Assembly: GCA_012520195.1 (NCBI GenBank)
Contig: JAAYOS010000009.1
Location: forward strand, 1-38,690
Reading direction: 5' to 3'
Length of the DNA stretch: 38,690 nt
DNA from: Clostridiales bacterium
Lineage (GTDB): Bacteria; Bacillota; Clostridia; Oscillospirales; JAAYOS01
The first letter of the stretch is position 1. Every line of letters begins with the position of its first letter. The translations under genes and the position numbers were made by a program. The notes beneath the pieces are model-generated. The model was not told the DNA's origin. It saw only the letters and a list, made by a program, of their open reading frames with translations, and did not search any database. Below are positions 13,712-17,514 of this stretch, in pieces.

Positions 13712-13740
13712 AGCGCCGCTCCAATCGGAGCGGCGCTTTT
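13712..13740 (+). terminator. Rho-independent terminator of the ribosomal run
   Basis: AGCGCCGCTCC (13712-13722) pairs perfectly over 11 bases with GGAGCGGCGCT (13727-13737) across a four-base loop, and the top strand continues with a short run of T then GTGTG. On the opposite strand the hairpin is followed by AATATG rather than T, so it mainly serves the + strand genes and probably does not stop transcripts from the convergent esterase gene. Confidence 0.85.
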
Positions 13741-13837: not shown

Positions 13838-14713
13838 TTAGAAACCCAGTTCTGCTAACCAGCCAACTGCGAGATCTGCCCAACGTGCTGTACGAGGAAA
13901 GTCTGGTGTTTCGTCCTTCCCATTATAGAGCCCACCACCATGAGGACCGTTGGCAAATGTATGTACCTCAAAAGGAATACCTCTGTCTGCCAGTTCTTTT
14001 CCAAAAATCATGGCGGAACGTGGGTCGTCCTCGTGTGTCTGAAAGATAAAGAATGGCGGGCAATCATAACGAAGATTCTTAACATTGTCAAACTGTGCTA
14101 TTTCATTTTGCTTTTTTATATCGTACCCAAGACCGCCAGCGCTTGATGCTGGAGACATGGCACCATAGAGGATCAGTGCAGCATCGGGTCTGCTGGAGAC
14201 TCTTTCTATTGGGTCATTTGCGTCAGGGTTTCCATAATCGAAGCGTGTTGCGGTATATGCCGATACCATTCCACCAGCTGAGAATCCTCCAATTGCTATC
14301 TTATCAGAGGGGATACCGAATCTATCTGCATTTGCCCGTAAGAAACGAACGGCTCTCAAACCGTCATCACAGCCGGTCTCACGCGAGTGGGGATTTACCC
14401 GATAATCAAGAATCGCAGCATTAAGGCCTGCCCCGTAGAAATACTCTGCAACAGGCTTTGCCTCGTTAAAAGACTTAAACATAAAGCCTCCGCCAGCGCA
14501 GATAATTACAGTGCCGCGATTGCTGTCCTTAACAGGATATAGCGCAAGCCTCGGCTGACTTCCTGTTGCCTCGGGATTCCAATTAGGTGCATCGCCCTCC
14601 CAGAGGTCATAGACTGGGACACCTTCTGAGTTGATCTCATCCCACATATTCGCCCACTGGCGGCCACGAATCTCCCTGAACTCTTGCAGTCTTTTTGGGT
14701 CAATCCTATCCAT
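13838..14713 (-). CDS. Soluble alpha/beta-hydrolase, acetyl-esterase-like
   Basis: This 291-residue protein lacks a signal peptide and membrane segments. An oxyanion-hole motif CAGGGF lies at residues 72-77, the nucleophile elbow GFSAGG gives Ser145, a likely acid is Asp229 or Asp230 in HEDD, and the base is His258 in GPHGGG, so all triad members are present. The pattern fits the acetyl-xylan/BD-FAE-like esterase group (fold family of PF07859/PF20434), which removes acetyl or other small acyl groups; the substrate is unknown. GAGGT is 6 bases before the ATG. It follows the membrane hydrolase by 34 bases on the same strand and probably shares its transcript. Confidence 0.85.
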   Translation of the reverse strand: MDRIDPKRLQEFREIRGRQWANMWDEINSEGVPVYDLWEGDAPNWNPEATGSQPRLALYPVKDSNRGTVIICAGGGFMFKSFNEAKPVAEYFYGAGLNAAILDYRVNPHSRETGCDDGLRAVRFLRANADRFGIPSDKIAIGGFSAGGMVSAYTATRFDYGNPDANDPIERVSSRPDAALILYGAMSPASSAGGLGYDIKKQNEIAQFDNVKNLRYDCPPFFIFQTHEDDPRSAMIFGKELADRGIPFEVHTFANGPHGGGLYNGKDETPDFPRTARWADLAVGWLAELGF

Positions 14714-14747
14714 AAAATTACCTCGTGATTCCTTTCAAAGTTGTTTA

Positions 14748-16631
14748 TTAATAGAAGTAGCTGCTAACCGCTGTTGTAGCGGTCATGGCCCATGTTCCGA
14801 ACAGAAGCGCTGTGAATAAGCCAGGCCAGACGCTGTTTGTTTTCTGGCTGACATATACATTGAGTGCGTTACCAACGCCAATACCGATGACCATTGGAAG
14901 AATCCCGATTCCAAGGATGTATAGCCTGTTAACCTTAAACATAGGAAGGATAACATTATGCACATTCAGCACATAGACAAACACAACCCAGAGAACTAAG
15001 AGACCTCCGACTGCGATTGCTGTAAAGATGGCAACATTCTTAGCAGTTGTCTTAGCAGTGCCATCGCCGATGAGGCCGAGTGCCCTTGCGGCCAAGGTAC
15101 TACTGAGGAAGTATGGCGTTAAGAATAAAAAGTAAACAAGGAAAATGAAAGTGCGATTTGCATCAATAGTCCTCAGCATAAAGGTTGCAATGTGCAATCC
15201 TTGCTGGGTGTAGTGTGATGCAAATGCCATTAGCAGGTAACCACTTCCGACAACAGTCAAGCCGTACAGCAGTGATTTCAAGATGTAACCAAAGCAAAAT
15301 TTCTTTGTGTCAGAGGATGCAAAACCATAGTTTCTGAAATCTCCTCCATTTTTCTTTCCATATGTAAAATGATAGAAGATAAAGAATGCAAATAATACGA
15401 TAGACAGGAGCCACTGCCAGCAAATCCAGGCGCTGACATTGCCCTCAAGCAGCCATAATGATTTGACGGGGATGCCTAGGAATGTTTCCTGTGGTAACTT
15501 GCCTGTTGCATAGAGTGCTGGAGGCAGAATAACAAGGAGCCCCAGTGCTAAGAACCAACGCCAACTATATTTCTTGTAGCCGACGTTCTTAAGTGGCTGT
15601 AGCTCTAAGCTTGCAAATACTTTAGTCTTCATTAGAGCAACCGCGACAATTGCCATAATCGCAACAATTGAAGCGAACTCAAGAAAGTAGCCAATATCGT
15701 GCCACTGCCACACTGTAGAAATGCTCTTGTAGTCATCATAGGAGTTGATGCCAGCATCCAGACCAAGACCAACATGGCTAGTGACAGCGTAGATAACAGT
15801 CTTCACCGCATCTTGATCAACTAAGTAATATGCATGGCAAGAATCAGGCATATAAGCAGTTCGTCTATATGTATTTCCATCGGTTCCTGTTACAGTATAG
15901 ACTTTGTTCAATTCAAGTTCTGGCAGCTCTTCAGCGGGTGTCTCGTAATCGTTATAAAACATTCGTTTAAGCTGCTCAACCTGGAAATGGCTCCAGTTGG
16001 TATCCCCAACTGCTCTAGCTAAAGCAGATTCATCGGAGTCTCCTAAGATGTTGACGAAATTGAAGTTGTGCTCAGTGATACTGTTGGGGCCATACATATT
16101 CATACCAATGTTTACCTGCAGAAAAATATCTTCCTGATTATCAATAGCAAACCCAACGGTATGCATACCACCGCCTGAGTGCCCCATGGTAACGATGCGG
16201 TCGGTATCAACATAGTTGAAGAATTTGACTGTATTCCAAATTGTGTTGAGTCCTCTTTTGCCATAACCGGAGATACCGGAGTTACCTTCCGAATCTCCAG
16301 TCGGAACATCTGACCCGGCTTGTGCAGCATAATCATATGTCACAACAACATAACCTCTGCGAGACAATTCGATAGCATACGAACTGGTCTGTTCGAGCAT
16401 ATCACTGCCGCCGTGAGCAATAATTGCCAGAGGTGCTTTATTTTCTGCTGTGACATTCTTCGGTTTGTAAAGCAGAGTGTGTATTTTATCGCCGTCTGCC
16501 GTTACAAGATTTAGATCGGTAATTTCTACTTTGCCCCAACTTGTAGAAGTTCCAATGATTAGTACCAATGATGTAGCGAAAATCAGAGCTACTAAAATTA
16601 GGGCCATGCTCATTCGTGTTAGTTTTCTCAT
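14748..16631 (-). CDS. Membrane protein with external alpha/beta-hydrolase domain and eight C-terminal helices
   Basis: The start is the ATG at 16631, seven bases after AGGGGG; the longer reading from a TTG at 16655 would run through that site. Of 627 residues, about 9-28 form an N-terminal anchor. Residues about 45-300 form an alpha/beta-hydrolase domain with HGGS (73-76), nucleophile elbow GHSGGG (Ser152) and a candidate His266 in DSCHAYY; D198 or D200 may be the acid. Eight hydrophobic helices follow from about 314 to 625. By the positive residues after the last external part, the catalytic domain is probably outside the membrane. I do not recognise a named family for the whole architecture, and the substrate is unknown. 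Confidence 0.75.
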   Translation of the reverse strand: MRKLTRMSMALILVALIFATSLVLIIGTSTSWGKVEITDLNLVTADGDKIHTLLYKPKNVTAENKAPLAIIAHGGSDMLEQTSSYAIELSRRGYVVVTYDYAAQAGSDVPTGDSEGNSGISGYGKRGLNTIWNTVKFFNYVDTDRIVTMGHSGGGMHTVGFAIDNQEDIFLQVNIGMNMYGPNSITEHNFNFVNILGDSDESALARAVGDTNWSHFQVEQLKRMFYNDYETPAEELPELELNKVYTVTGTDGNTYRRTAYMPDSCHAYYLVDQDAVKTVIYAVTSHVGLGLDAGINSYDDYKSISTVWQWHDIGYFLEFASIVAIMAIVAVALMKTKVFASLELQPLKNVGYKKYSWRWFLALGLLVILPPALYATGKLPQETFLGIPVKSLWLLEGNVSAWICWQWLLSIVLFAFFIFYHFTYGKKNGGDFRNYGFASSDTKKFCFGYILKSLLYGLTVVGSGYLLMAFASHYTQQGLHIATFMLRTIDANRTFIFLVYFLFLTPYFLSSTLAARALGLIGDGTAKTTAKNVAIFTAIAVGGLLVLWVVFVYVLNVHNVILPMFKVNRLYILGIGILPMVIGIGVGNALNVYVSQKTNSVWPGLFTALLFGTWAMTATTAVSSYFY

Positions 16632-16811: not shown

Positions 16812-16839
16812 ATTATACCAAAACAGGGTAAGTTTTCAA
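16812..16839 (-). promoter_or_regulatory. Extended -10 promoter for the membrane hydrolase unit
   Basis: Read on the minus strand, TTGAAA (16839-16834) and TATAAT (16817-16812) are separated by 16 bases, and TGG directly before the -10 box makes it an extended -10 element. It would give a leader of about 175 bases before the ATG at 16631. This is a vegetative sigma-A type promoter by sequence. Confidence 0.7.
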
Positions 16840-17329: not shown

Positions 17330-17365
17330 ATAAGGTGGCGGTAGTTGTAATAGACTTCGCACGAT

Positions 17366-17475
17366 AGAGAGTTCGCACTATCACGACAGAGAGTTCGCAC
17401 CATCACGATAGAGAATTTGCACTATCACGATAGAGAATTCGCGCGATCACTACAGAGAATTCGCACAATCACGAT
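17366..17475 (+). repeat. Five 22-bp tandem repeats in the tex leader
   Basis: Units at 17366, 17388, 17410, 17432 and 17454 follow each other without spacers. Each starts AGAGA(A/G)TT and contains CGCAC-like and ATCACGAT-like blocks, with a few differences per unit. A shortened unit precedes (17352-17365) and a decayed one follows (17476-17485). The array ends about 40 bases before the tex ATG. Absence of unique spacers rules out CRISPR. Confidence 0.9.
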
Positions 17476-17514
17476 AGAAAATTCTCAAGACATTGTTTAG
17501 AAACGGAGACATAT

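Follow-up and report, generated by a model that had tools for sequence, protein, structure and literature searches.

The window analysed here, a stretch of 38,690 nucleotides from a Clostridiales bacterium, carries two adjacent genes between rplQ and tex, one coding for a membrane-anchored hydrolase and the other for a soluble esterase, which raises the question of what the membrane protein does and whether both proteins act as one system. Our analysis indicates that the membrane protein belongs to a real and coherent family that has no name, whose architecture is in part new and whose role can be tested, and that the gene pair is not a conserved system. Both open reading frames were found on the minus strand with the sizes and spacing given in the initial annotation: the first gene (14748..16631, with its ATG start at 16631) encodes 627 residues, and the second (13838..14713) encodes 291 residues and follows after 34 bases. 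The two genes had also been assigned to one extended -10 promoter. A candidate site is present on the minus strand (16812..16839; TTGAAA and TATAAT separated by 16 bases, with TG before the -10; 11/12 in the consensus scan) and has the top score in the region, but the 10 promoter-like sites of the region equal the chance level of 9.6 expected from shuffled sequence, so that the claim holds for the presence of the motif and not for its standing out from chance. On the downstream side, a strong stem-loop terminator on the plus strand (13712..13737; a stem of 11 pairs, nine of them GC, with a T-rich tail) lies between rplQ and the convergent two-gene unit. A structured RNA leader was looked for within the window and gave no Rfam match. 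At positions 17360-17484, a 22-bp unit, CACGATAGAGAATTCGCACTAT, is repeated in tandem about 5.7 times, and the array stops 30 bases short of the tex start codon; the unit was found neither elsewhere in the window nor in the other loci compared.

The two-gene unit had been proposed to interrupt a conserved rplQ-tex core as a later insertion. We found tex in none of 10 relatives on the stretch downstream of rplQ (about 10-13 kb in four of them, short in the others), and the idea of a conserved junction was rejected for the relatives with readable contigs; the proposed interruption of a conserved core is not supported. In addition, codon usage and GC content of both genes were within or near the range of the flanking genes, and the proposed codon comparison gave no signal of a recent foreign origin.

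The AlphaFold2 model of the 627-residue protein (pLDDT 86.2, pTM 0.88) predicted a single helix at the N-terminus, followed by an alpha/beta-hydrolase domain and then by eight membrane helices in the C-terminal part, in agreement with the nine helices counted previously. The anchor helix (residues 6-29; 16545..16616, minus strand) coincides with a hydrophobic N-terminal segment that is found in nearly all of the scanned family members. The following domain (approximately residues 35-290; 15762..16529, minus strand) is predicted to adopt the alpha/beta-hydrolase fold (Foldseek E 6e-7): its top match in VIA-align was the Thermoanaerobacter TTL lipase (7q4j; Z 20.9, 207 residues, rmsd 2.9), whose structure contains a monoacylglycerol intermediate, closely followed by feruloyl esterases such as the ferulic acid esterase 7z2u (Z 20.5) and Est1E (Z 20.1). 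The residues named in the initial annotation were all in place, including HGGS at 73, Ser152 in GHSGG and His266, as well as Ser145 and His258 of the esterase. The GHSGG sequence conforms to the GxSxG nucleophile elbow, and S152 and H266 are conserved in all 25 diverse members compared, as are E88, R91, R92, R257, F339 and W405; together with an Asp or Glu at position 200 in 24 of the 25 aligned members, Ser152, Asp200 and His266 are candidates for the catalytic triad. Profile libraries see the family only as a weak generic hydrolase, with weak Peptidase_S9 matches in all 25 members. Regarding topology, the hydrolase would lie outside because the N-terminus is taken as inside, an orientation that agrees with the positive-inside rule, since among the loops long enough to count, the more positive ones (335-356, with five K/R, and 429-446, with three K/R) would be inside. 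The description of a membrane protein carrying a serine hydrolase is supported, and the domain is probably external.

The C-terminal domain (residues 298-627; 14751..15740, minus strand) was also modelled on its own (pLDDT 83.3) and compared separately with solved structures, as had been suggested. The best match was SpdC (6u0o; VIA-align Z 10.5, 206 residues, rmsd 4.1), with a score below the VIA-align caution line for helical bundles, and the second was Rce1 (4cad; Z 7.6, 200 residues, rmsd 4.3). The following rows fell to Z 4.2, with APH-1B sixth at 3.9, which is noise level, and Foldseek alone gave E values above 0.3, which are not significant. SpdC, Rce1 and APH-1 have all been grouped in the CPBP family (PMC7387801), and for this reason their agreement is probably more than a random match between helical proteins, the CPBP/ABI likeness being one of the predicted model. 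The motifs of CPBP proteases (EExxxR, FxxxH, HxxxN/B) did not form a conserved set in the 25 C-termini, where only isolated partial matches occurred. PF02517 did not match the window protein up to E 1 and was absent from the 25 most frequent Pfam families over the 25 members. Furthermore, a comparison of the C-terminal half with 16 CPBP proteins from the carrier genomes gave an hhalign probability of 0.15, like the controls; sequence homology to CPBP is not claimed because this profile-profile comparison was not significant. The PDB sequence profile search returned chance rows only for the membrane half, the viral structure library gave no match, and no Pfam or NCBIfam family was found for it, which fits the initial remark that no named system of this layout is known. 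Additionally, no transporter profile passed its cut-off in Pfam or NCBIfam, nor did a transporter or other known family surface in these libraries or in the structure searches. The membrane half may thus work as a protease-dead CPBP-like scaffold, CPBP membership not being claimed, and the earlier idea that it serves the hydrolase fits a predicted SpdC/Rce1-like fold devoid of protease motifs.

The 627-residue protein is a member of a scattered, unnamed family of Bacillota and Spirochaetota. Full-length relatives with 72-78% identity were found in four genomes (two rumen Clostridia and two Sphaerochaetaceae), and the family is far beyond chance because of these relatives in other genomes and another phylum and because of the residues invariant in 25 members. 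In the tree, the window protein and four proteins form one clade with a support of 100/100. Strong matches to the C-terminal half occurred in 10 of 398 sampled Bacillota genomes, and all 13 of them were in open frames of at least 592 amino acids that also hold the hydrolase, the other matches being either weak or pieces of a single broken copy. Within the Sphaerochaeta family, 12 of 61 genomes matched the protein, some of them in the hydrolase part only. Several copies per genome are present in some rumen and Sphaerochaeta-type bacteria, up to seven or eight in some, and the source genome has four. Since close relatives exist in another phylum and the family is absent from the only other genome sampled within the genus, the distribution suggests horizontal spread. 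Plasmid records gave weak hydrolase matches only, none of which covered 80% of the query, and an anti-phage role found no PADLOC match. At three loci (L003 3828-7887, L004 1094-7902 and L157 620-11442), at least two subfamilies, of 706-714 and 628-663 residues, adjoin each other; such arrangements occur in both phyla, and these neighbours are perhaps partners. At another locus (L050 8017-11547) the family member forms the last part of an open frame that is unusually long (1176 amino acids), perhaps through the choice of start or a further fusion.

The genes beside the relatives point to L-arabinose and glycerol use. L-arabinose genes (AraR, ribulokinase-like AraB, AraD and AraA) adjoin family members at 7 of 35 loci in six genomes (L002, L155, L156, L157, L160, L165 and L166, with L057 as a weak eighth case), and glycerol genes (GlpK, GlpP, GlpD/GlpA type, the glycerol dehydrogenase GldA and the dihydroxyacetone kinase DhaK) were found at five (L051, L053, L054, L056 and L168), L051 having the order GlpD, GlpP, family gene, GlpK. 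None of 20 control loci, taken around PF02517 genes of the carrier genomes, had either kind of gene, and comparing 13 of 35 with 0 of 20 yields a one-sided exact probability of about 0.001, which is indicative only, as there is relatedness among the genomes and rows and the genes used as context queries came from the family loci themselves. About two thirds of the family loci have neither gene set, and so the family may have several roles. All four closest relatives, those of the window protein's clade, are in arabinose or arabinogalactan loci; the window's own locus is without arabinose genes, and one paralogue of the source genome adjoins a solute-binding protein and an arabinofuranosidase. 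L003 also holds a GH53 galactanase together with an alpha-galactosidase. Two of the closest relatives are followed by a small lipoprotein of 177-185 amino acids (L002 6036-6593 and L005 2598-3131; the L005 copy has no Pfam match), for which no counterpart was found at the window locus. Immediately upstream of the closest relative, within the arabinose locus L002 (2612-3991), lies a protein whose best NCBIfam match is the glycerol-1-phosphate dehydrogenase model, below its cut-off. In the glycerol locus L053 (5957-7660), a second family copy adjoins the intact one and looks broken, its C-terminal part matching in separate pieces.

From these data we tentatively favor, as the most plausible reading and at somewhat less than an even chance, that the 627-residue protein is an outward-facing serine carboxylesterase mounted on an SpdC/Rce1-like, protease-dead membrane domain, and that it frees products of the arabinose or glycerol type from acyl esters. 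The Ser152-Asp200-His266 site would face outward and cleave acyl esters of small compounds with hydroxyl groups; in the clade of the window protein the likely targets would be acylated (feruloyl, acetyl or similar) fragments containing L-arabinose, and for other clades they could be acylglycerols. Sugar or glycerol released in this way would then feed into the pathway for arabinose or for glycerol. The membrane part would most likely orient the enzyme and bring the amphipathic substrate to it, in the way the membrane protein SpdC is described as a scaffold for the hydrolase SagB (PMC10581084), and the soluble 291-residue esterase might strip any acyl groups still left on the material taken up by the cell.

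The same neighbourhoods could be read in terms of import, with the external domain cutting the ester and the eight-helix domain taking up arabinose or glycerol in place of a separate transporter. In the glycerol loci the family gene occupies the operon position beside glpK or adjoins it, as in L051, the hydrolase is fused in every strong C-terminal match, and none of 13 carrier genomes has the aquaglyceroporin PF00230; this absence is weak evidence because PF00230 occurs in just 22% of the sampled Bacillota, and it was dropped as proof of a permease role on account of that base rate. We consider such a hydrolase-permease unlikely, as the predicted fold is nearest to CPBP proteins and to no known transporter, and the helices have no conserved acidic residues or histidines, which a proton-coupled transporter would be expected to carry. 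Its narrower form, in which ester cleavage outside and import of arabinose or glycerol are combined in one polypeptide through a CPBP-like domain turned transporter, is less likely again, and we know of no case of a CPBP fold used as a transporter. Serine hydrolase folds can also serve as acyltransferases, and an acyl-enzyme formed at the outer face of the membrane might pass its acyl group to a cell-envelope acceptor while the CPBP-like part presents the lipid donor, comparable to LnsA/LnsB. LnsB, a CPBP-like partner of an NlpC/P60 enzyme, has no catalytic residues and is needed for lipoprotein acylation (PMC7387801), which makes this scheme conceivable, but the recurrent neighbourhoods are catabolic rather than related to envelope biogenesis and the nearest folds are lipases and feruloyl esterases, so that we regard it as equally improbable as the narrower transporter form. 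Still less probable is a role in signalling or peptide processing, in which the hydrolase would be an S9-like peptidase and the membrane part a regulator: SpdC does bind histidine kinases through its membrane part (PMC5854430) and the Peptidase_S9 profile matches every one of the 25 members, but these matches are weak, esterases rank first in the fold comparison, and no kinase or peptide gene recurs beside the family.

Lastly, both enzymes could form one conserved two-gene system, as initially put forward. The presence of an intact soluble esterase beside the membrane protein was confirmed, since the 291-residue protein exceeds the cut-off of Pfam PF20434 (BD-FAE; E 4e-12, 46.5 bits against 26.8) and keeps Ser145 and His258. 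Its best solved relative is 6a6o (E 1e-32, nearly full-length alignment), it is far below every NCBIfam equivalog cut-off and it has no membrane anchor; judged from its sequence, it is an ordinary predicted esterase of the BD-FAE/Abhydrolase_3 type. The 34-bp gap and the shared strand favor a system, and so does a second esterase copy, 39-42% identical, which in the same genome (contig 50) lies about 1.6 kb away from a distant paralogue of the membrane hydrolase, separated from it by one gene. The genome-neighbourhood search put relatives of the esterase at 2 of about 35 membrane-hydrolase loci, both in the source genome, and at no other family locus searched, so the pairing exists only here and, loosely, at that one other locus; as a general rule the two-gene system is largely refuted, and it is the least probable of the readings considered. 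On contig 50 the second esterase copy is accompanied by a sialate O-acetylesterase-type enzyme, two PF00756 esterases and an S9-like hydrolase, and this set of proteins, the BD-FAE type included, beside a family member of 712 residues (L047 4762-12760) apparently makes up a carbohydrate deacylation locus.

Several known systems resemble one or another part of the unit. We found no named fusion of this kind of hydrolase and membrane domain in the open literature. Among solved structures, those nearest in fold to the N-terminal domain are TTL lipase, Est1E and further feruloyl esterases (Z 20-21), all of them determined as stand-alone enzymes that have no comparable membrane domain; their sequence identity to the N-terminal domain is 10-18%. 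The 291-residue protein, over the curated cut-off and aligned to 6a6o over nearly its full length, shows nothing unusual in comparison with BD-FAE/Abhydrolase_3 carbohydrate esterases. The Rce1 CAAX protease, of the PF02517 family, is the second-best predicted-fold match of the C-terminal half, but this half lacks the EExxxR/His/HxxxN set and a Pfam match, and the profile comparison was not significant. The LnsA/LnsB pair for lipoprotein N-acylation likewise combines a hydrolase-type enzyme with a CPBP-like protein that has no catalytic residues (PMC7387801), but LnsA is an NlpC/P60 enzyme and a separate protein, and the function of the pair is biosynthetic. A further parallel is SpdC (LyrA) with SagB in Staphylococcus aureus, where the membrane protein, the best predicted-fold match of the C-terminal half, has a CPBP/ABI fold that lacks the protease residues and holds an extracytoplasmic hydrolase. 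In the family described here the hydrolase is covalently fused and is a predicted serine alpha/beta-hydrolase, not a glucosaminidase, the recurrent neighbours are sugar or glycerol catabolism genes, and there is no match to SpdC at the sequence level. If our interpretation is correct, it would provide a function class and test substrates for an unnamed family of Bacillota and Spirochaetota, and the CPBP fold would serve, after SpdC-SagB and LnsA-LnsB, as a protease-dead platform for another kind of surface enzyme, in this case with the hydrolase joined to the CPBP-like platform by a permanent fusion.
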